Shown here in pieces: positions 8,580 through 44,392 of a stretch of DNA of 45,679 nt (positions are counted from its first letter, which is position 1; each line of letters begins with the position of its first letter). Made by a program: the position numbers and the translations under genes. The notes beneath the pieces are model-generated. The model was not told where the DNA came from, ran no database searches, and saw only the letters and a list, made by a program, of their open reading frames with translations. Where the stretch lies: IMG/VR virus record IMGVR_UViG_3300028859_000032, positions 1 through 45,679 of that record; one strand, 5' to 3'. The stretch is from a virus.

Positions 8580-8834
8580 TTAAGGTGTAGGGGAAGGCGT
8601 TGGAGTAGCGATAGGTTCAGAACTTGCGGCAGCAAGAACAGCGAGGAATTGGTCATAGCAGCTAGTCGTACAGGCTTGGTTTCCAGCACACTGATTCGAA
8701 CAGTATTCCTGTGCCAAAGAATAATTGATTGTGGTTGATACCTGTACCTGGATTGGATCCACTTTAACTGGATCGGAGTGAATATCAATCCCACAACCAC
8801 CTAAAGTAAACGTTAACAAAAGTAGGTATTTCAT
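8580..8834 (-). CDS. Predicted lipoprotein, Cys-rich, Pro/Thr tail
   Basis: The 84-residue protein has a lipoprotein signal peptide: MKYLLLLTFT, then the lipobox LGGC, with the lipidated Cys at about residue 14. The mature part has four further cysteines in CSNQCAGNQACTTSC, which suggests two disulfides and thus periplasmic or surface exposure. It ends in a TPTPSPTP tail. Phage lipoproteins often block receptors to prevent superinfection (for example T5 Llp); that role here is inference. Its ATG overlaps the HNH gene stop (ATGA). Confidence 0.65.
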   Translation of the reverse strand: MKYLLLLTFTLGGCGIDIHSDPVKVDPIQVQVSTTINYSLAQEYCSNQCAGNQACTTSCYDQFLAVLAAASSEPIATPTPSPTP

Positions 8835-16164: not shown

Positions 16165-16458
16165 TTATTGATTCAAAAACTCTTTAAACTCATTACATGT
16201 CATGTTCAGTCTTTGTGGAAAAGTATCTCCCACGAATTTAACGAAACAATTTCCCTTATCTTCCGTAAAATAAATGATTTTGGATCTCGATATAGATATC
16301 TCAATTATATCCTTGCAATCTTTCGAATCTTCTACCGCGATACATCCATATGAATAAATGGTTAGGATCTCTGGACGGTGCTTTTCTGGCTGAGAAGCTT
16401 CCTGGATTTTAATTAAAGAGCACCCAGTCATTAACAATAATAGTAGCAAATATTTCAT
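16165..16458 (-). CDS. Predicted lipoprotein
   Basis: The protein has 97 residues. The frame could begin at a TTG three codons earlier, but the ATG at 16458 has AAGGA at good spacing and starts a classic lipoprotein signal: MKYLLLLLLMTGC, with lipidated Cys at residue 13. The mature domain has four further cysteines (YSYGCIAV, DCKD, NCFVK, TCNEF), compatible with disulfides outside the cytoplasm. I do not recognise the family. Superinfection exclusion or an envelope function is inferred. It is the last gene before the structured RNA segment. Confidence 0.65.
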   Translation of the reverse strand: MKYLLLLLLMTGCSLIKIQEASQPEKHRPEILTIYSYGCIAVEDSKDCKDIIEISISRSKIIYFTEDKGNCFVKFVGDTFPQRLNMTCNEFKEFLNQ

Positions 16459-16470
16459 ATAAGTCAATCC

Positions 16471-19598: not shown

Positions 19599-20372
19599 CT
19601 AAATCTTGTTGCGAATTGAAGTCAATGTTTCGCCAACAGTTTGTTCATTAACAGTCTTTAGCACAAAAGCGCCAGGAAGAGCTTGTAATGTTTTTGATGC
19701 TTTACCAGCCACTACCACAAAGGTCTTCGTTTTAAGACGTGTAAGGTTCTTTTGAAGATCTAAAGCAAAAACTTCATCGCTAGTGTTCAAAAGAACTGGC
19801 GTAATAGATCCAGAATGCTTCTTCTCTAGAGCCTTTTCTGCAATTGAACTAATAGCGTCTAAACCAACAACTTCTGATCCGATTTGATCATTAATAGCTT
19901 GTTTGAGTAGACCTGCAAGTTCTTCGGTATTGCTTACTGCTCTATTGTAGCGTTCATCAAACTTGATCTCCATAAGAGAGTTTCGGCTGATACCAATTTC
20001 TAAGGCTTTATCGTACAAAGCATTATTTGCAATATTAAATAGGTATTTAGTAGATTCACGACCAAACAATTTAGAGTCTACACGAGAAGCTAAGTCACGA
20101 TATAAATTGTCTGGGTCTACAGAGAAGCAATCAAAATCAGGATTTGAAGCCACCTCATTAAATGTGCTACGGCCAGCTCCAGTTAAAATGATAAAGAAAG
20201 TAGACTCAATGAGAGCTTTCTTGTAATCTGTCTTAAGTTGCTCTAAACGATCAACCGCAGCGCGTTTCATACCTTCACGACCACGAAATGTACTCTCGTT
20301 TCCTAGAGTAAGATCTAATTGAGCTGCTGGCAGCGTTTTTTCGATTTCTTGAATGATTGAGCTTAATGACAT
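19599..20372 (-). CDS. Hypothetical protein of the replication block
   Basis: The 257-residue soluble protein has mixed alpha/beta character. Notable stretches are FFIILTGAGRSTFNEVASNP (59-78), long helices at about 85-180, and a C-terminal alternation (KTFVVVAGKASKTLQAL). I recognise no domain. It has a good GGAG ribosome site. It lies upstream of the SSB and recombinase, so participation in DNA metabolism is possible but unproven. Confidence 0.6.
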   Translation of the reverse strand: MSLSSIIQEIEKTLPAAQLDLTLGNESTFRGREGMKRAAVDRLEQLKTDYKKALIESTFFIILTGAGRSTFNEVASNPDFDCFSVDPDNLYRDLASRVDSKLFGRESTKYLFNIANNALYDKALEIGISRNSLMEIKFDERYNRAVSNTEELAGLLKQAINDQIGSEVVGLDAISSIAEKALEKKHSGSITPVLLNTSDEVFALDLQKNLTRLKTKTFVVVAGKASKTLQALPGAFVLKTVNEQTVGETLTSIRNKI

Positions 20373-20374
20373 GT

Positions 20375-20623
20375 CTATTTCTCCGTTTTGATTCCAAAAT
20401 GTTTTCTAATTTGGTCGGCATTCTTGATACTTTTTGAAAAAGCGTCTGCCTGTTTTTTTCCGAACAATGAATCTTCAAAGTTCTTTTGTATCATGAGATT
20501 TGGATTTTTACAAGAAAATTCTACGAAAATCCTTCCACTCATTAAATTTTTGCTAACTTTAAGGAAAGTATCTGTATCAATTTCCTTACTTTTTATTAAC
20601 TTAAAGTCTTCTTTAAAATCCAT
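20375..20623 (-). CDS. Small hypothetical protein
   Basis: The 82-residue protein is basic and soluble (DFKEDFKLIKSKEIDTDTF, LFGKKQADAFSKSIKNADQI). No motif or family is recognised. It ends 2 bases before the start of the 257-residue protein and probably shares its transcript. A longer frame in another phase over the same bases (20275-20478) has poor composition and is treated as a shadow. Confidence 0.55.
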   Translation of the reverse strand: MDFKEDFKLIKSKEIDTDTFLKVSKNLMSGRIFVEFSCKNPNLMIQKNFEDSLFGKKQADAFSKSIKNADQIRKHFGIKTEK

Positions 20624-20662: not shown

Positions 20663-21403
20663 TTATTTTTTTAGAATACACTGATTTTTATTTTCTGCAA
20701 GAATTTTTCCTGTGGCAATCGCAGTAGCCTGTGAAGTTCCGCTGAGAGTAATACCATAAGCTTCAACGTTTTCGCCTATTTCCCATCTATTTACGAAATT
20801 CCCATGATTGGACCATTTTGATGGGATGCCATATTTATCTGTAGAACCTACAACAACAATTCGTTTATCGTACATTGCGGGATAGTAATCTTCATCGCCA
20901 GAACCAATTTTTTTTCCGTCATTACCAGCTGCAGCAATAAATTTGCCGCCTCTATTTAAGAATCTTGTAACTGCCATTTGCTCTTCTGGATCTGAATCTG
21001 GGCCGCCACCTGAATAGTTAATGATATCTGCGCCAATTTGATCGTTAGCAAAATTAATTGCTGATATGCTAGCCCTTAAGTTTTGATGGTTAGTTTGATC
21101 TTTTGAATAAAATTTAAGAATAACAATGCAATAATTTACATTAAATTTATTGGCGTAATCCTCAATAATACCGACAATATTGGTACCATGACCAACCGTA
21201 TCTACGGGTATAAAACTGTCTTCACCTATATATCGTAGGCCCTTTTTGGTAAAATCTTTATGGCCCCAATAACATAGATTAGCATCTTTTGGAAGTTTGT
21301 TGTACCCAAAGCCCGTATCGATTACCGCGATTTTAACTTGTCTTTTAACGCATTCCGCGTATGCTGAAGAACAAAATAGGGCTAAGATAAGGGCCAATTT
21401 CAT
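20663..21403 (-). CDS. Secreted subtilisin-like serine protease (S8 family)
   Basis: The protein has 246 residues. A signal peptide (MKLALILALFCSSAYA, likely cut before E17) is followed by a compact subtilase domain with no propeptide. The full catalytic set is visible: D29 (AVIDTGFG), H72 (GHGTNIVGI), the oxyanion N161 (AAAGNDG) and S224 (SGTSQATA). Four cysteines may form disulfides. It should act outside the cytoplasm, perhaps on envelope proteins during lysis, on rival receptors or on virion proteins. A secreted subtilase embedded among replication genes is unusual. Confidence 0.85.
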   Translation of the reverse strand: MKLALILALFCSSAYAECVKRQVKIAVIDTGFGYNKLPKDANLCYWGHKDFTKKGLRYIGEDSFIPVDTVGHGTNIVGIIEDYANKFNVNYCIVILKFYSKDQTNHQNLRASISAINFANDQIGADIINYSGGGPDSDPEEQMAVTRFLNRGGKFIAAAGNDGKKIGSGDEDYYPAMYDKRIVVVGSTDKYGIPSKWSNHGNFVNRWEIGENVEAYGITLSGTSQATAIATGKILAENKNQCILKK

Positions 21404-21435
21404 ATTATATATGATCTCACTAATTTAAACAAAAG

Positions 21436-24400
21436 TCAAGCTTCGATGAAAATTTCCTCAATGACCGCAGGATCTCCGCTGCCTTGACGTTTCTTCATAA
21501 AAAACATACAGATATTCCCCTTTTTAAGATCTTTTGGGTACTCTAATTTCTTTGAAAAATAATTAGGCCACATAACGTGTTCTTTAACATACCCATCTAC
21601 ATCAATAATTACTTTTAAAGCTTGTTTAGTGTTTTGGCTATAATCAAATACGCTCGTGCCGACTACATACCCAAATACTGCAAAATCCATGTCTTTGGTT
21701 GATTGTTCTGGTGTCTTTTTGTCAATCTGTTCGAATTCTTCTCCGCCTAATAGGATTACGTGATCCCCGTCTTCAAATTTTAACGGAACATAAGGATCTG
21801 CATGGCGCTTCCCTCTTCCTTTTTTGGTCATTACTGCTCTCTTAAAAGTAGCTTGACGATCCATAAGAGAAGAGTGGCTCATGCCAAGGTTTCTTAGGCC
21901 AACCAAAAGACTTGGCAGGATTGATTTTTGGATTGCTGCATTCTTTAAAGGATACTTTTCAATTTCCAAATATTCTGGCTTGATTTCACCTTTCTTAGGA
22001 ACTTCAATCCGACTTTTCTTGCCTTCGGCCTTAGCCTTAGCAATTTTCTTATTAAACTTGTTGGTCTCAAGAAGATCCTCAAACACTTGCATTTTTTGCA
22101 ACAGTCCAAGTTTTGGGGGAAATAATGAATCGAGAACTCCTACATGGATGAGCTTTCTCGTTACGGAATCTCCTGCCACTTCCTTATTAACAAAATCTTC
22201 AATATCCTTATAGGGCCTACCTTCTACGATTGGATCGATAGTGGCAGAGGCCATCCCTTTGATAACACCAAGTTTTGCTCTAATTTTTCCGTTGGCGTAA
22301 TCGATTTCCATCTCATCTGTTGAGAGATTAATGTCTGGAGCAGCAACCAAGTGTTTGACGTGGGGCCAGAGCTTACCGGCAATCTCTTTGTTCTCAGCAT
22401 TAGTAAGAACCGCAGCCCAAAATTCTAAGCTGTAATGGTGCTTCAGGAACATGCAAGCGTATGTGATAAACGCATACGACACACCATGAGATTTATTGAA
22501 AGCGTACCGTCCAAAGGTCACAATACGATCCCATAGCATCTGAGCTTCATCCTCAGTGATCTTATTGGACTGTAAGCACCCATTAATGAAGTCTGGCTTG
22601 ATCTTTAAGATAGTAGCGCGTTTCTTTTTACCGATTGCTTCCCGCAAGTTTTCGGCAGCAGATCCAGAGAATCCGGCCAACTGCTTTGCGATTTTGGTGA
22701 CCTGTTCCTGATAAACCAATACGGAGTGAGTTTCTGGGATCAATTCCTTAAGAATAGCGACATCCTTGTATTCACCACCATCACGTCTATGAATATACTC
22801 TTCGGCCATATTACGCCCGGTATCTTCATTTACATAATCGAGTGGGCCCGGACGAACCAATGAAAGGATGATCGAAAGGTCCTCGATACTCGTAGGTTTG
22901 ATACCTTTAACGAAGGGAATCATCGAACTTGTGTTAATTTGAAAACATGATTCTGTGTTCCCATCCCATACACTTTCGTAAGCCTTTGAATCACTTGGTA
23001 AATTCCAAATATATGTTGATTCCCCATTATGAGAAAAGTGGCCCGTCTTGTGTTTTTCTTTATTCTTCTTATTAATCAAATCTAGGCAAACACGGATATC
23101 TTTAAGTTGGCTGATGACTAGGAAGTCATATTTGATGAGTCCGGCCTTCTCTGCCTCTGTAGCTTCGTATTGAATGACATTATCGTCTTTGGTCGGAACA
23201 ATTTCTGAAATTGGTTTGTCTGCTATGATAAATCCACATGCATGTTTTGAGAACGATCTAGTAATCCCAAGTGATTTTTTAACAATATCCCATTCTTTGG
23301 GTCTTTCTATCGCATATTTCCGTAATGGCTCTGAAGTTTCAATTAGACCATCAATATGGTTACCGTCCTCGTCTTCCATACCAAAAATGAATTGCTCGTC
23401 TGTGATGCCCTGACCTGCGTCTGGTAGCGATTTAGCGAAGACTTCAATGGACTTCTCGACTGATCCATTAATGTATCGGTTTGTGTCTTTAATGGCAGAT
23501 TTAAGCCTAGTTTTTCCTCTCGTACTGATCTGGGCAGCCTTATTGCCCCAACGATTATAAAGATAGCCACTTTTACCATCTTCGCCTACTAAAAGATCCC
23601 TGGATTCCAAATCGGAGTCAATATCGGCAAGCTTAAGAGCTTTAATCCGATCCATTGAATAGAACCGATTGAAACTCAAATCAAAATCAAATGGATTGAC
23701 TTTAGTGATACCCATTACGTAACACACTAGACTTCCAGCAGCACTTCCTCGCCCTGGACCTGTTAGTCTACCATTTTCTTCATAGTAGTTAAGAACATCA
23801 TGCTTAGGAAGAAAATATGGTGAAATGTCAAAAACGCCATTTTTAGAGAAAACTTCCATTTCTTCTTTAAGTCTCGCAACCCAAATAGGATTGTCCCATC
23901 TCATTAGGCCCTTTTTCTTAATAATATCTATGCATTTTTTGGCAGGATTTTCACCGCTATCAGCAAGACGCCATTTGTACTTGAGTTCAAATTCATCAAA
24001 GTTTTTGGCCCATTCATTGTTTCCATTGAGAATGGAGGCGCATTCATCTGATGTAAGTCCAAGATTTGTTGTGAGGTAGGCTTCAAATTCAGTATCTGAT
24101 TTCATATGCAGACTAGACTTTAGCTTATTTTTGCCACCCAGAACCATGGTCTGAACGATATGGTCTTCTTTGTCTGAATAAAAGGCGTAATCTGAAACCA
24201 ATAACTTGATCCCATGCTTCTTGTTCATTTCAATGAAAAAACGATTGATATTTAGGGTTACGTCCACAGGCAAAGGGAGAAATCCGGTATGGGCTGTCAC
24301 TGCTCCAATTTCTTTGTCCACTTCATAAAAAGTACTTCCGACCACTTTCGACTTAATAAGAAAATGACCGCTTCGTTCCACTAAGTCCCCTGCTTCAATC

Positions 24401-25050
24401 TTACGGGCCTTATTGGTAGTAACGATGTCAGTTGAGAGAAGGGAGTCCGTAGTACCATCCTTATATTGGATTTTCACTACCGTTGCATATTTTTTAGTCC
24501 ATGGCTCACAAATTAGTGACATCGAAAGTCTATCACCAAAAAGAGCGTGTAATTTTAACAAGACTGTCTCTGCCAATTCAGGGCTATCGGCAAGGAGTGC
24601 CTTTCCAACCATACACTGAGGGCCACCAAGAACAAGAAGGGTATCGGCTTTACTTAAACGCTCAAGATCTTTCCATGACCAAAGAGATTCAAATTCCTCC
24701 CTGACCTTGATTTTTGGCATATCGTTCGACGAAACAACCCTTACGATTTCTTGATAGGAATCTTGATTCTTCGCAAAAATGGACGCATTGAAATACTTAC
24801 ACCTATCGGCCTTAGACCCCACAACAATTGGGCAAGAGGAATCCTTGAAATAGAATTCAATACCTGCAGCAAATTTTAACTTTGCGGCTTTAGCTTGACC
24901 ATAGGCTTTCAAGCAACTCGATAGATGGCCCAAATCCGTATAGGAAAAATGAGTTCGGCCAAGATCCACCGCCTTCTTGATCATTGAAGGTAGGGGTGAT
25001 CCAGTTAGTTTAGATTCGCAATGCGTATGTGGAGATATCAACAATGTCAT
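21436..25050 (-). CDS. DNA polymerase III alpha subunit, DnaE-type
   Basis: The 1204-residue protein is the phage replicase. The N-terminal PHP domain (1-310) keeps H8, H10 and E65 but has TDLGH and SDYAFY where metal-binding forms have TDHGN and NDAHY. A beta-rich insertion lies at about 184-268. The C-family palm has GPGRGSAAGS (431-440), the catalytic DIDSD (476-480) and a third acid in KYDFL (D642). SKHACGFII and FNKSHGVSYAFITY are also conserved. The gene starts with an ATGA overlap. Proofreading is probably supplied by the DEDDh protein encoded at 25691. Confidence 0.9.
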   Translation of the reverse strand: MTLLISPHTHCESKLTGSPLPSMIKKAVDLGRTHFSYTDLGHLSSCLKAYGQAKAAKLKFAAGIEFYFKDSSCPIVVGSKADRCKYFNASIFAKNQDSYQEIVRVVSSNDMPKIKVREEFESLWSWKDLERLSKADTLLVLGGPQCMVGKALLADSPELAETVLLKLHALFGDRLSMSLICEPWTKKYATVVKIQYKDGTTDSLLSTDIVTTNKARKIEAGDLVERSGHFLIKSKVVGSTFYEVDKEIGAVTAHTGFLPLPVDVTLNINRFFIEMNKKHGIKLLVSDYAFYSDKEDHIVQTMVLGGKNKLKSSLHMKSDTEFEAYLTTNLGLTSDECASILNGNNEWAKNFDEFELKYKWRLADSGENPAKKCIDIIKKKGLMRWDNPIWVARLKEEMEVFSKNGVFDISPYFLPKHDVLNYYEENGRLTGPGRGSAAGSLVCYVMGITKVNPFDFDLSFNRFYSMDRIKALKLADIDSDLESRDLLVGEDGKSGYLYNRWGNKAAQISTRGKTRLKSAIKDTNRYINGSVEKSIEVFAKSLPDAGQGITDEQFIFGMEDEDGNHIDGLIETSEPLRKYAIERPKEWDIVKKSLGITRSFSKHACGFIIADKPISEIVPTKDDNVIQYEATEAEKAGLIKYDFLVISQLKDIRVCLDLINKKNKEKHKTGHFSHNGESTYIWNLPSDSKAYESVWDGNTESCFQINTSSMIPFVKGIKPTSIEDLSIILSLVRPGPLDYVNEDTGRNMAEEYIHRRDGGEYKDVAILKELIPETHSVLVYQEQVTKIAKQLAGFSGSAAENLREAIGKKKRATILKIKPDFINGCLQSNKITEDEAQMLWDRIVTFGRYAFNKSHGVSYAFITYACMFLKHHYSLEFWAAVLTNAENKEIAGKLWPHVKHLVAAPDINLSTDEMEIDYANGKIRAKLGVIKGMASATIDPIVEGRPYKDIEDFVNKEVAGDSVTRKLIHVGVLDSLFPPKLGLLQKMQVFEDLLETNKFNKKIAKAKAEGKKSRIEVPKKGEIKPEYLEIEKYPLKNAAIQKSILPSLLVGLRNLGMSHSSLMDRQATFKRAVMTKKGRGKRHADPYVPLKFEDGDHVILLGGEEFEQIDKKTPEQSTKDMDFAVFGYVVGTSVFDYSQNTKQALKVIIDVDGYVKEHVMWPNYFSKKLEYPKDLKKGNICMFFMKKRQGSGDPAVIEEIFIEA

Positions 25051-25569: not shown

Positions 25570-25694
25570 ACTTCCTTCACTTTCATGAAATCACAATCCA
25601 CTAGACCATGTTCTACCGGTACACCAGGCAATCCTTTGGATGCTCTTTTAATACAAATCTTGCAAATCCCATCTGGACCAAGCCGGAGACTCAT
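25566..25694 (-). CDS. 42-residue miniprotein with CxxC motif
   Basis: The ORF starts in an ATGA overlap with the proofreading exonuclease gene and ends in an ATGA overlap with the next miniprotein. It encodes MSLRLGPDGICKICIKRASK and continues with one more Cys. The C-x-x-C suggests half of a zinc knuckle or a redox site. No family is recognised. Confidence 0.5.
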   Translation of the reverse strand: MSLRLGPDGICKICIKRASKGLPGVPVEHGLVDCDFMKVKEV

Positions 25695-26323
25695 TCGGCC
25701 TCCAATAAGCTAATCAAATCTTGAGTTTGTCCGCCTTCTTTTTTGGATTTCATAAGCTCGATCATTTTCTTATAAACGTCTAGGGTCATATGAACGTCAC
25801 CTTTAGCTTCATGGGCCTCACGTTTAGCAATACCAAAGAATTCCACGAGGCTTTTCAGTGTACCAGTTTCAGGCGGCAACCAACCACAACGCTTGAGGAA
25901 TAGGCACGCCGTCTTGGTGTCTTCTACATTATAACTAAAAATGCTCTCCCATTCATCTTTTGGAATGACGTACTCCCAAATCATGGCCAAATCGAATGAT
26001 ACGTTTTGTCCTAATGGAATTAAGTTGCTATATCTTCCAGTTTTTTTAAGATATTTTTTTGCAAAATTTATGATTGAAATTTTAGCTTGAGAATACGTAA
26101 GGGTATTAGGATCGGCAAGATGTTTCTCAAGATCGATCTTGTTTACTTCCATTGCCTCAGCTTCTACAATTGGAAGTCTATCGTTTGGCTTAAGCTTAAA
26201 ATCAAGTTCATCTACAATTTTAAGATTTTCGTCGGTCATAGCCATATATAAAGTCAGAATATCTGCTTTTTTAGGATCCAGGCCACCCGTTTCTGAGTCT
26301 AGACATAAAATGAAATTAGCCAT
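25691..26323 (-). CDS. DEDDh 3'-5' exonuclease, DnaQ-like proofreading subunit
   Basis: The protein has 210 residues. The four acids and the histidine of the DEDDh family are visible: D9 and E11 in LDSETGG, D110 in GQNVSFDL, then H170 and D175 in AHEAKGDVHM. It resembles DnaQ epsilon and would excise mismatched 3' ends. Its position four miniproteins upstream of a polymerase III alpha subunit with a degenerate PHP domain makes it the likely proofreader. The gene is probably expressed from the same transcript as the polymerase. Confidence 0.85.
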   Translation of the reverse strand: MANFILCLDSETGGLDPKKADILTLYMAMTDENLKIVDELDFKLKPNDRLPIVEAEAMEVNKIDLEKHLADPNTLTYSQAKISIINFAKKYLKKTGRYSNLIPLGQNVSFDLAMIWEYVIPKDEWESIFSYNVEDTKTACLFLKRCGWLPPETGTLKSLVEFFGIAKREAHEAKGDVHMTLDVYKKMIELMKSKKEGGQTQDLISLLEAE

Positions 26324-27015: not shown

Positions 27016-28800
27016 TTACGATGGTTTACGAGAGCTATTTTTAGGATTTTCGGATTTTTTGTTCTTAGGTTTAAATGCGGTACCTTTTACGATCATATAG
27101 AGTTGTTTCATGCCACCTTTATAAACGGCTCCGCAGCATAAAATCCACGTACTAGGTCCGTTATTATAACCATGGCGTTCGTGGGTCATATGGCCTACGG
27201 TAAAACATCCATGGAAAATACTAGGAGTATGTGAATGGGCTACCATGACATCGCCATGAGCAAGCTCGTGCCCTATTTTGTTTCCGCGTGAGCCATTCGT
27301 GCCAAGATGACCGTGAACGTTCATTTGTACACCTTCTACGTAATCATCGGCATTCTCTTCGCTCCATACCATACGCTTTTCGGGATCCATACGTAATTGG
27401 AGTGGATTTTTACCATGATAGCCTTCTAAGAACATCTCGTGGCCAATAATCTTATTTGGCGCACAATCTTTAATGTAGCGAGCCTCTTCTATGTAACGCA
27501 TTACGTGTTCAGGGTGATTAGATGCAGTGGCAATAATTCTTGCATCCTTTGGGGCTTTTGCCCACACTGATTCGAGGACACTTTTTGCATAAGAAATCTC
27601 AGATGGAAGGTCTGCAAAATACTTAAAGTCACGGGCAATAATCGCTTGGGTAAGACCTTTCTTTTCTAAGTGATGGGAGATAGAAGTTCCATCGAAAAAG
27701 TCTTCAAGATAAATGCGTTTAGGTTGAATTAATTCCCATAGATCATACATACCGTTCATTGCGGTTTGATCATGGTGACCTGGGTGAATATCTCCCATTT
27801 TGAACGCTTCGGCGCGTTCTTTTGTAGTAGATCCATCTGCATGGTAGCGAGTTCCAAGATCTACGAAAGAACCGTTATAAACGTCGAACTGTACTTGGCG
27901 CATCCAGAAAACGTCACCGCGAACTTCTACGATTAATCCACCGAGCATATGATCTTCATTGGCAATCATACCGACTCGATTACGTAAATATGAAGGTTTA
28001 GTAAGACATCCAGTTGAGTGGACGATACGTGGATGAGAAGAGTTTCCTGTAGGACTTACTTCCATCATTTGCTTTGAGTGTCCGATAATCAGAGAGGTTT
28101 TTGCACGCTTTATTTCCTGTCCTTTTTCGTAATTGCCAGTGTACTTATGTACACGTAGGCGACGAAGACCAGTGATAGGGTTTGCTTGTTGAGGATTTAA
28201 ATGGGCCTCAATAGCTTTTAAATGTGCGTTGAAAGTAAATTCTGTCGCAAAATTATTACGGTAAGGTTTCAATTTTGGATCGTAATGCTGAGGTTGTTTT
28301 TGTAAAGCCTTAACGTGAGCTGGCATTGGAAGCAATACCATTTCAGCTTTGTTACGTGACACAAAATTTTGCATTGCCGCAAATCCTGGCTCAAAAAGGT
28401 TTTCTGCCAATACATCTTCGCCTTGTTCTGCGCGACTGAAATCTGCCTCTGACCAGTCTAAGTAAGAAGTTGGGGATACGGCTGTAATGAAGAACGTTCC
28501 TTCTTTATAGTCATTTTCTTTTACAATGTTACCAATGGCCTCTTTGGTAAAGTCATTTAGTGAGTGTGGGACTTTTGGCTTAAGTACGGCTAATTCTTGT
28601 TTATCTATTTTAGCAAAAGATTTTGGCTTTTCTTTTCTAGAAGCTATCTTTAGCTTTTCCATGTTTCCAAAGTAATCACGAACCTTATCTCTTGAAATTC
28701 CAGAACTAAGAAGATCTGCCCGTGTAGGGTATTCGCCATTCTTTTTTGATAAATCCGCGTATATTTTAACGATCTCTTTTTGTTTTGGAGTTAAAAGCAT
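27016..28800 (-). CDS. Calcineurin-like metallophosphoesterase with N-terminal HTH
   Basis: The protein has 594 residues. The N-terminus (about 1-60, PTRADLLSSGISRDKVRDYF) looks like a helix-turn-helix. The C-terminal half holds metallophosphoesterase motifs: MGDIHPGHHD (GDxH), TASNHPEH (GNH-like), NVHGHLG, and VAHSHTP (GHxH-like). The usual GD-x-x-D motif is less clear. The length and mixed architecture recall phage DNA-degradation or transfer proteins such as T5 A1, but I cannot confirm homology. A nuclease or phosphodiesterase acting on host nucleic acid is the best inference. A strong RNA hairpin precedes the gene. Confidence 0.55.
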   Translation of the reverse strand: MLLTPKQKEIVKIYADLSKKNGEYPTRADLLSSGISRDKVRDYFGNMEKLKIASRKEKPKSFAKIDKQELAVLKPKVPHSLNDFTKEAIGNIVKENDYKEGTFFITAVSPTSYLDWSEADFSRAEQGEDVLAENLFEPGFAAMQNFVSRNKAEMVLLPMPAHVKALQKQPQHYDPKLKPYRNNFATEFTFNAHLKAIEAHLNPQQANPITGLRRLRVHKYTGNYEKGQEIKRAKTSLIIGHSKQMMEVSPTGNSSHPRIVHSTGCLTKPSYLRNRVGMIANEDHMLGGLIVEVRGDVFWMRQVQFDVYNGSFVDLGTRYHADGSTTKERAEAFKMGDIHPGHHDQTAMNGMYDLWELIQPKRIYLEDFFDGTSISHHLEKKGLTQAIIARDFKYFADLPSEISYAKSVLESVWAKAPKDARIIATASNHPEHVMRYIEEARYIKDCAPNKIIGHEMFLEGYHGKNPLQLRMDPEKRMVWSEENADDYVEGVQMNVHGHLGTNGSRGNKIGHELAHGDVMVAHSHTPSIFHGCFTVGHMTHERHGYNNGPSTWILCCGAVYKGGMKQLYMIVKGTAFKPKNKKSENPKNSSRKPS

Positions 28801-35171: not shown

Positions 35172-35420
35172 TTAGTCCTCTTCGGAATAATCTTTTTTGG
35201 ATCGCTCATCATTGATCTCCGTAATATTTGGGTCAATTTCGATCCTGCGGGACATAAGCCCATTGTCGATAACAATTTTGTGTGAAGATGAAGTGAGCCC
35301 AAAAGCCTTCTTAGCTTTTAGGCCACACTTACAAGGAAGAGAATCTGGCGCATCCGATGCGGTTTTTTTGTACTTATTGAATGAAATTCCGCAAGTACAT
35401 GAATAGCTGATGAGTGGCAT
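35172..35420 (-). CDS. FmdB-like zinc-ribbon protein
   Basis: The protein has 82 residues. The N-terminus MPLISYSCTCG followed 20 residues later by LPCKCG matches the CxC/CxxC zinc ribbon of the small FmdB-type regulatory family, which begins MPxYxYxCxxCG. The second half is charged and probably disordered. The ATG overlaps the stop of the ClpP-like gene by one base. FmdB-like proteins are commonly found in phages; their role is unclear. Confidence 0.6.
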   Translation of the reverse strand: MPLISYSCTCGISFNKYKKTASDAPDSLPCKCGLKAKKAFGLTSSSHKIVIDNGLMSRRIEIDPNITEINDERSKKDYSEED

Positions 35421-36295
35421 TACCAGTACATCGGGATTTCTTGTTTTTGAGAATTATAGAATGTAGCTAAGAATTTAGACTTAATTTCATTCTTAATTTC
35501 GGTAGGAATCTCTTTGCCTTGAGGCATAAGCATACTAATATTCATAGGGGCAGTATTTAGAGGACAATTATCAAGTTCATAAGATACCTGCATTCCCATG
35601 AAATCTAAGCTATGCTTAGAAGTACCGCCGATACTGGCATCACAACGAACAAGTACTACTTCATCGCTGTAGCCTTCTTGTACTGATTTAGTACCAGTCA
35701 ACCACATCTCATGGTCATATTCTTTAAGGTAGCTATCGTAAGTTTGCTTGCCTTTAGTACGAGATACGGTCTGTTCGTCAAGTTCACGAACTCGATCTAA
35801 CCAAAATTGGTAACGGCTATCTACTTGTGACGGTTTAGTTCCACCGAAAGAGCCCTCGAATCCACCAGCTGCATGGTGACTCATCATAACTCCATTTTTA
35901 AGGACCAAGCGATCGTCAAGATTTTGAACGATTTGGAAGGCCATACTAGCGGCAAATAGGGTTACTGTATTAATTTTACAGCCGAGACCGCGAAGTGCCT
36001 CGTTCAACTCTAGTCCAGACTGAATGCTTCCGCCTGGGGAATTGATAAAAAGATTAAGAGTTGGTTTTTGACCAAATAGCTTTTTTACAGCGCTGACTTG
36101 ACACAGTTCCTTGGCTTTTGAAATCACAGCTGAAGTGCTTTCTCCATTAACCTCACCATTTAATACAAGCAAGTTCTTGCTAGTAAGAACCACAGTAGGA
36201 CTGAGGTCTGGGGCTTTCTTCTCCTGTGAGATTGACATTTTCGGGACTAAAATCATTACCAATCCCAGTAGGGTGATAAGCGCCATTTTCTTCAT
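35420..36295 (-). CDS. Exported ClpP-like serine protease
   Basis: The protein has 291 residues. A hydrophobic N-terminus (MKKMALITLLGLVMILVP) looks like a signal peptide with cleavage near residue 23. The ClpP/crotonase-type core follows: FINSPGGS (83-90), the nucleophile S117 in LFAASMAF, the catalytic His at 140 or 141 in MMSHHAAGG, and DHEMWLTGTKSVQEGYSDEV (194-213), matching the ClpP segment with the acid and the EYGxxD turn. Cysteines occur in the mature part. Phage ClpP-like proteins are usually cytoplasmic prohead proteases; export is unusual. The target is unknown. Confidence 0.75.
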   Translation of the reverse strand: MKKMALITLLGLVMILVPKMSISQEKKAPDLSPTVVLTSKNLLVLNGEVNGESTSAVISKAKELCQVSAVKKLFGQKPTLNLFINSPGGSIQSGLELNEALRGLGCKINTVTLFAASMAFQIVQNLDDRLVLKNGVMMSHHAAGGFEGSFGGTKPSQVDSRYQFWLDRVRELDEQTVSRTKGKQTYDSYLKEYDHEMWLTGTKSVQEGYSDEVVLVRCDASIGGTSKHSLDFMGMQVSYELDNCPLNTAPMNISMLMPQGKEIPTEIKNEIKSKFLATFYNSQKQEIPMYW

Positions 36296-42601: not shown

Positions 42602-44392
42602 ATGGCATATCGTAAAGCAAAAACAGCACCTAAATTATATTTGGCCGATAAGGACAGAATTAAGGCAATCGTATTAGAAACCATGAATGATATCAGCCTT
42701 CTTGTCGGCGCGACACTTGGTCCCGGAGGTAAAGTCTGCTTATTGGAGTCTGATCATCAGGACATCTCAGACCGTATCTCTAAGGATGGTATCTCGGTAT
42801 TTCAATCAATGGCTCATCAGAATGCCTACAAGCATAGTATCATTGAAGTTGCTCGATCGTGTTCTCTTAGGACGGCCACCGAAGCTGGGGATGGCACAAC
42901 GACCACTGCGGTTTTAGCCAATGAAATTATTAAGAATATTTTTGCTTTTTGTGAAAATAATCCAAAAGAAAGTCCTCAAAAAACTGTTCGTCGTATCAAG
43001 AAAGTAATGGAAGACGTACTTCTTCCTTATATTAAGTCCCAAAGTATTAAAGTAACCCAAGAATCTAAGGACTTGCTTTTAAGCGTTGCTACCATCAGCG
43101 CCAACGGAGAAAAGGCTCTTGCTGAAGCAGTTCTTAAATGTTTCGAAGAAGTAGGTTTTGGCGAAAGCAGCCATGTTACTATTCGTGAGCTTCCTGGTCC
43201 AAGCGGATACAAAGTTGAACGAATTGAAGGATACCCAATCCCAATTGGCCTAGAGGAAAGTTCTGGTAAATACTTCACAAGTTTTATCAACGATCAAGGA
43301 AATCAACGAGCTTATTTAGAGAATCCTAAATTCATCATTTTTGATGGAGCAATTCAAGACCTATTGCCATTAAGCCCTCTTCTTAATGCTATTGAGGCAC
43401 GTATCCAAGAAGACCCTGCTAAAAATAAAGATCTTAAAAATCTTGTATTGGTTGCAAATGGATTTTCAGAGACAGTTATTTCTACGCTCGCATTTAACTT
43501 TGAGCAAACTGGCACTCTCCGAGTTCTTCCAATGAAAGCTCCAATGGCTCAATTCATGAACGCACAAAGTCATTGGTTAGTCGATTTGGCTGCCTTTACA
43601 GGAGCAAGAGTATTTGGCATGAAAAACCAAATTAATGACGCTACTGTTGAAGATTTAGGAAGCGGAATGGAAAGCTTTGAGGCCACACGTTTCAGAAGTA
43701 CATTGAGTGGTACTCCAGATGAAATAAATATCGAATGCCGCGCAGAAGAATTGACAACCCAACTTAAGAGAGCCGAATCAAAAGCTGAATCTGGTTGGTT
43801 AGAAGAACGTATTGCAAAAATCACTTCAGGTATCGCAAAACTTACGGTGGTTGGATCTTCTCCTGGAGATATCAAAGAAAGATGCGACCGAGCAGAGGAT
43901 GCAGTGTGCTCTATTCGTAGTAGTTTAACTAACGGAATTCTTCCGGGTGGTGGACGAGTAATTCTTAATATGGCTCTTAAATTATCTAACGAATTACCAA
44001 AAAACGATCCAGCTCTAGAAATTCTAATGCCATCTTTTATCAGTGTTGTAAACCGACTCCTTGAAAATGCCGGTTACAACGAAGAGCAGGCAGGAGAAGT
44101 ACTTGGTCATTTAGTCAGTAATCCAGAAGATGTTTACGATATCGAAAATCAAGTATTCGGAAAACCCGAAGAGTTGGGATTATTTGATGCTTGTAAGGCT
44201 GTAAGCGAAGCTCTACGTAACTCAGTTGAAATTGCAGGTGTTCTTGGAACTCTTGGTGGTATCGTAGTTCACCCTCGTGACTCTGATTTCGAGCGTAAAG
44301 AAGCTTCTCTTGATGAAGAATGGCGCAAAGTAAGTGCTAATCCAGATGCTTACCAGAACCCTGCTTTAAATAGAGCTAGACAGGGCGCTTAA
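42602..44392 (+). CDS. Phage GroEL-like chaperonin
   Basis: The protein has 596 residues, slightly longer than GroEL (about 548). Group I chaperonin signatures are present: VGATLGPGGKVCLLES (GroEL TLGPKGRNVVLD), GDGTTTTAVLA for ATP binding, and RAEDAVCSIRSSLTNGILPG (GroEL VEDALHATRAAVEEG), which keeps the catalytic Asp. The apical domain (about 190-400) diverges most. A ring ATPase that folds virion proteins is expected. A GroES-like candidate is encoded at 38527 on the other strand. The terminase gene follows after 4 bases. Confidence 0.85.
   Translation: MAYRKAKTAPKLYLADKDRIKAIVLETMNDISLLVGATLGPGGKVCLLESDHQDISDRISKDGISVFQSMAHQNAYKHSIIEVARSCSLRTATEAGDGTTTTAVLANEIIKNIFAFCENNPKESPQKTVRRIKKVMEDVLLPYIKSQSIKVTQESKDLLLSVATISANGEKALAEAVLKCFEEVGFGESSHVTIRELPGPSGYKVERIEGYPIPIGLEESSGKYFTSFINDQGNQRAYLENPKFIIFDGAIQDLLPLSPLLNAIEARIQEDPAKNKDLKNLVLVANGFSETVISTLAFNFEQTGTLRVLPMKAPMAQFMNAQSHWLVDLAAFTGARVFGMKNQINDATVEDLGSGMESFEATRFRSTLSGTPDEINIECRAEELTTQLKRAESKAESGWLEERIAKITSGIAKLTVVGSSPGDIKERCDRAEDAVCSIRSSLTNGILPGGGRVILNMALKLSNELPKNDPALEILMPSFISVVNRLLENAGYNEEQAGEVLGHLVSNPEDVYDIENQVFGKPEELGLFDACKAVSEALRNSVEIAGVLGTLGGIVVHPRDSDFERKEASLDEEWRKVSANPDAYQNPALNRARQGA

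Follow-up and report, generated by a model that had tools for sequence, protein, structure and literature searches.

The comparison of phage sequences indicates that a small exported subtilase belongs to the core genes of a single large-phage clade, and is not a stray gene. The protein was studied in a 45.7-kb IMG/VR virus record (IMGVR_UViG_3300028859_000032, positions 1–45,679), which is referred to here in its full length as the window, and in which the subtilase gene occupies positions 20663–21403 of the minus strand, starts with ATG and encodes 246 amino acids. The initial annotation of this DNA had described a subtilase with a complete catalytic set, and this description was confirmed by a Pfam search, where the Peptidase_S8 family (PF00082) matched residues 21–233 with an E-value of 3.1e-18 and a score of 66.6 bits, well over the family cut-off (21.8 bits). 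The second family match was PHROG 3677 (protease). The residues that define peptidase family S8, which are a D/H/S triad in D-T/S-G, H-G-T, and G-T-S contexts together with an oxyanion asparagine, were all found, as D29 in VIDTG, H72 in GHGTN, S224 in GTSQATA, and N161 in AAGN. An AF2 model obtained with a 31-row alignment had a mean pLDDT of 90.5 (58 when five sequences were used), and it matched thermitase, subtilisin, and deseasin in Foldseek with E-values of about 1e-13 and TM scores of about 0.7, which supports the subtilisin fold. Among viral proteins, Foldseek pointed to the 253-aa protease of Lactococcus phage AM4. The fold and the catalytic machinery are common to the window subtilase, to thermitase and subtilisin of the S8A type, and to intracellular subtilisin, while the window protein differs from S8A enzymes in its length of 246 aa, in an export signal without an I9 propeptide, in the invariant Cys44 and Cys92, and in the sequence GTSQATA in place of GTSMATP.

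The clean signal peptide and the absence of a propeptide, both of which had been noted before, were also borne out. By inspection, the N-terminus MKLALILALFCSSAYA/E, where the slash marks the cleavage site, is a textbook signal peptide comprising residues 1–16. A hydrophobic N-terminal stretch of this type is present in only 6 of the 53 window proteins, and the features of Sec export (n-region, hydrophobic core, and cleavage site or lipobox) could be recognized from sequence alone. Only about five residues separate the cleavage site from the S8 domain, which starts at about residue 21, and these are too few to accommodate an I9 propeptide. The pattern of secreted S8A enzymes, in which the signal is followed by an I9 propeptide of about 70 aa, was absent from the relatives as well, with at most about 35 residues preceding the catalytic domain in any of them. 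These features suggest that the subtilase is a minimal, propeptide-less exported protease, which is probably active, and which would fold outside the cytoplasm and be held by one or two disulphides formed among its four cysteines (Cys18, Cys44, Cys92, and Cys242).

The comparison was extended to 31 distinct relatives, which are 33–66% identical to the window subtilase. The catalytic D, H, N, and S residues, as well as Cys44 and Cys92, are invariant in all 31 of them, while Cys18 near the N-terminus and Cys242 near the C-terminus co-occur across the relatives (Fisher p = 1e-5). The invariance of one cysteine pair and the covariation of the other suit the disulphides predicted to form in the periplasm. 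An N-terminal export signal was seen by inspection in 31 of 31 relatives, of which 30 exceed the hydrophobicity cut-off and one, L007, falls slightly short of it. Three styles of this signal were observed, which are the signal peptidase I type present in the window, a canonical lipobox (L024, L026, L028, L047, L051, and L053), and an apparent membrane anchor (L034). The fact that the style of the signal changes, yet export is kept, argues that the extracytoplasmic location is what selection acts on. The dN/dS ratio for the L007/L009 pair of subtilases was 0.22, while the comparison against L004 was saturated and could not be used. In the same pair (L009:11561–12929 and L007:11652–12386) the DnaE proteins are 98% identical and the subtilases only 77%, and an HNH gene sits between dnaE and the subtilase in one of the two phages, which suggests allele replacement by homing.

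The view that subtilases are rare in phages proved to be a fair one, as 22 of 50,697 phage records matched the window subtilase at E ≤ 1e-3, none of them with more than 34% identity. The best of these matches, MT836193, was set aside, because it is an unverified faecal scaffold, in which a 459-aa ORF reads as a cellular biosynthetic enzyme. The subtilases of Bacillus phages BSP12, Goe3, and vB_BcoS-136 (PHROG 3677) likewise contain a phage-encoded S8 core, which is about 28–34% identical, but these phages infect other hosts and no link to dnaE was seen in them; the BSP12 subtilase also has a longer ORF, located in the terminal region of a Herelleviridae genome. Distant exported subtilases were additionally noticed in other phage types (L032, L037, L039, L027, and L036), some of them adjoining a terminase gene, which shows that the gene moves between phages. 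The few distant copies that have terminase or structural genes nearby (L027, L032, and L039) could mean that a virion-associated or prohead-type protease has been mistaken for an exported one. This explanation is highly improbable, given the export signal in all relatives, the disulphide-type conservation of cysteines, and the position in the replication cluster. The arrangement that the initial annotation had named as contrary to its interpretation, with homologues always located in virion or lysis modules, is not the one seen in the clade.

In the window the subtilase gene lies 32 nt behind the gene of a DnaE-type DNA polymerase III alpha subunit (1204 aa, positions 21436–25050, minus strand), which was assigned by Pfam, PHROG, and a tree, and is the conserved upstream neighbour. 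This agrees with the position just after the DNA polymerase gene that had been noted earlier. Downstream on the minus strand there are genes of an 82-aa conserved protein (20375–20623) and of a 257-aa conserved replication-cluster protein (19599–20372), which has no Pfam match and is also found in Mx1-type phages, followed by genes of the ssDNA-binding-like and UvsX/RecA types. A match to PHROG 1745, annotated as DNA transfer protein (27016–28800, minus strand, E = 9e-65), is also located within the replication cluster.

The linkage of the subtilase to DnaE was followed in three scans. A polymerase scan gave seven related contigs and one near-identical contig, and the subtilase was located behind DnaE in each of the seven; the subtilase alignment, used as a query, retrieved 25 loci from viruses and one from a bacterial MAG; and 79 loci were retrieved when 11 aligned DnaE sequences served as the query. 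The subtilase was present at every locus where DnaE was at least about 40% identical, except L055 and L057, and at none of the loci where DnaE was at most 33% identical. Genome-wide searches detected exactly one copy in each subtilase-bearing phage record searched, and no match in the 165–170-kb records G017, G022, and G023 or in Myxococcus phage Mx1. A tree of DnaE groups the phages that have the subtilase together with L055 and L057 in a single clade with 100% support, and thereby gives one gain and one loss. This clade consists of phages of about 150–177 kb, and the subtilase is present in 25 of its 27 members, while the sister lineages, including Mx1, lack it. The gene directly follows DnaE in 19 of the 25, and is one or a few genes away in the other six, where it is separated by an HNH gene (L009, L023, and L042) or by other genes (L034, L038, and L061).

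Myxococcus phage Mx1, a virulent myovirus (PMC6070905), is the one isolate with a related polymerase module. Its DnaE is 32% identical over 97% of the length, and its 257-aa, ssDNA-binding, and RecA-like genes are arranged in the same order as in the window, but the subtilase is found nowhere in its 170 kb. The two phages also have in common a GroEL-type chaperonin (42602–44392, plus strand; 42% identity). A different arrangement is present in Moorella phage MTATph1, where an S8 protease is likewise encoded within 3 kb of a DnaE-type polymerase, but this protease is 26% identical, lies upstream rather than downstream of dnaE, has other neighbours, and comes from a phage of a Gram-positive host. 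One contig of the clade (L042) and several further copies belong to a Deltaproteobacteria MAG from a bog (G001), in which contigs C413, C429, C54, C79, and C273 contain two clade-type subtilases and several fragments of exported ClpP-like genes. The presence of several clade-type genes indicates that several related phages were binned there. The phage contig in this MAG has a GC content of 38%, compared to 47–55% in the chromosomal contigs, which makes the assignment of the host through the MAG weak, and our guess is that the host is among Deltaproteobacteria in the wide sense. A search for a cellular donor within the phylum to which this MAG belongs yielded no close one, as the best chromosomal matches reached E-values of about 1e-36, compared to about 1e-80 for the phage copies.

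A predicted sigma70-type promoter (TTGACT-N17-GATCAT, positions 21411–21439, minus strand) is located 7 nt before the subtilase ATG. Considered alone, the window promoter is no better than expected by chance for that region. However, the arrangement TTGACA-N17-TATNNT, 6–7 nt before the ATG, was found in 20 of 25 DnaE-linked relatives, compared to 2.4% of other gene starts. A promoter score of at least 9 out of 12 was obtained for 19 of 25 subtilase starts, among which L051 was entered with a corrected start, versus 11 of 463 other starts at the same loci (Fisher p of about 1e-21, a nominal value, as the rows are related). The hexamers are conserved across relatives and the spacers are not, and in the other ortholog groups among the tested neighbours this arrangement was present in at most 23% of cases. 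In the window and in many lineages the –35 box overlaps the stop codon of dnaE. As the –10 box ends 6–7 nt before the ATG, the mRNA is predicted to start at the ATG, and thus to be leaderless. Shine–Dalgarno-like motifs precede 24% of subtilase starts versus about 40–88% of the starts of most neighbours, although a few other groups are equally low. A promoter-like site with the same leaderless-type arrangement (TTGACT-N17-TATCAT, ending 6 nt before the ATG) was also noticed at the window exonuclease gene (25691–26323, minus strand), where it is kept in only about 12% of relatives.

The lineages with altered gene content help to define the role of this promoter. In L034 and L061 it has kept its place after dnaE, with a leader that contains a Shine–Dalgarno motif and then another gene downstream of it. 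In L055 (9560–9600) and L057 (9555–9600), which have no subtilase, the promoter is retained, and is now located ahead of a gene in which the 82-aa and 257-aa proteins are fused. The survival of the promoter after the loss of the gene indicates that it drives the replication transcript rather than only the protease, and the most fitting view is therefore that of a conserved promoter internal to the replication cluster, with the subtilase at its head. The possibility of a moron with its own promoter and terminator was dropped because of this persistence in L055 and L057; no terminator was found after the subtilase on the same strand. The promoter also bears on whether the subtilase could be a lysis helper, which would cut envelope-linking proteins in the periplasm at the end of infection, in a job similar to that of spanins. 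The exported or lipid-anchored location would fit the outer-membrane step of lysis, but the gene is linked to dnaE and not to lysis genes across the clade, the sigma70-type promoter suggests early expression, and the annotated endolysin of the sister phage Mx1 lies elsewhere, so that this role appears unlikely.

The other exported proteins named in the initial annotation, which are a ClpP-like protease and two lipoproteins, are indeed encoded in the window. The ClpP-like serine protease (291 aa, positions 35420–36295, minus strand; Pfam CLP_protease, E = 4e-13) is the second exported protease of the clade. All copies in its alignment contain a signal peptide, invariant Ser117 and His140, and invariant Cys218 and Cys244. 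The gene was found in 12 of the 14 subtilase-clade records tested first, where it lies about 14–35 kb upstream of the subtilase on the same strand whenever both were found, and further copies are present in the MAG of L042 and in L051, L056, L057, and L063. It was not found in L047, L053, and L061, nor in the fragment L049, and its absence from the subtilase-bearing L047, L053, and L061 indicates that the two proteases are not strictly coupled. An exported ClpP-like protein was not found in Mx1, and annotated phages contain only remote relatives of the head-maturation type. The proteins of the window and of L144–L155 are exported, whereas the ClpP-like head proteases known from other phages are cytoplasmic.

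The clade has two exported proteases, both from families of broad specificity, and this could also point to a nutritional or auxiliary metabolic role, in which periplasmic protein, or protein of prey, would be digested to supply amino acids for virions. This could fit with the sister phage infecting Myxococcus, a predator, and with one relative being in a Deltaproteobacteria MAG. On the other hand, the subtilase is small and sometimes membrane-tethered, and no peptide uptake genes were noted, which makes this explanation rather improbable. The two lipoproteins are encoded on the minus strand at 16165–16467 (lipobox LMTGC, conserved in L004-type relatives) and at 8580–8834 (lipobox LGGC), and both lipoboxes were confirmed. 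Such exported products of the phage could in principle be substrates of a maturation protease, similarly to the dedicated subtilases QhpE and mycosin, which each process single partners. The best NCBIfam matches of the window subtilase were the T7SS mycosin and QhpE, but the equivalog cut-offs were missed by far (57 bits where 279 are required, and 36 bits where 165 are), and neither identity was accepted. Additionally, the subtilase is more conserved than any exported partner, and the lipoprotein genes were not found clade-wide. Hence, a maturation role is quite unlikely.

We propose that the subtilase is an early-expressed periplasmic or surface protease, which cleaves envelope proteins of the host, with an altered cell surface or periplasm as the likeliest benefit, and we give this proposal an even chance of being correct. 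The host RNA polymerase would transcribe the gene early, into a leaderless mRNA that also covers the replication genes further downstream. The protein would then leave the cell by the Sec route, with its signal peptide removed, or with a lipid anchor in the lipobox relatives, and would fold without a propeptide, held by one or two disulphides. During infection it could cut periplasmic or outer-membrane proteins of the host, probably alongside the exported ClpP-like protease. The phage might benefit from removal of the receptor, that is superinfection exclusion, or from disabling of an envelope-level defence. These outcomes are favoured, since expression goes with replication rather than with the genes for lysis or the virion; superinfection exclusion is a plausible benefit, although both the substrate and the benefit are conjecture. 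A more specific version, in which the subtilase with its leaderless promoter and the ClpP-like protease form an early two-enzyme periplasmic takeover module that reworks or immunizes the host envelope, is put forward only tentatively, as somewhat less than probable. The early envelope-remodelling programme suggested by the initial annotation is thus partly supported: the exported, probably active protease at a conserved position in the replication cluster and its ClpP-like partner in the clade agree with it, so that it was right in outline and is unproven in specifics, while defence against predators gained no support.

The phage proteases known so far are mostly enzymes of capsid maturation or effectors in the cytoplasm, and to our knowledge no exported superinfection-exclusion protein is a subtilase. 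In the literature no report was found of an exported phage subtilase in an envelope-cutting role. Exported superinfection-exclusion proteins, such as Ltp-type lipoproteins and SieA of phage P22, are likewise phage-encoded and reside in the infected cell's envelope, where they block DNA entry or bind (PMC3952083; PMC10883804), and their similarity to the subtilase is a functional analogy only. If the two-enzyme module exists, it would be a proteolytic envelope takeover of a kind not described before. The clade also offers a compact subtilase, probably with disulphide bonds, whose folding has to do without a propeptide, and a route to testing proteolytic superinfection exclusion or envelope counter-defence. 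The fixation of an exported protease beside the replicative polymerase implies that envelope proteolysis may be a routine part of infection by these phages.
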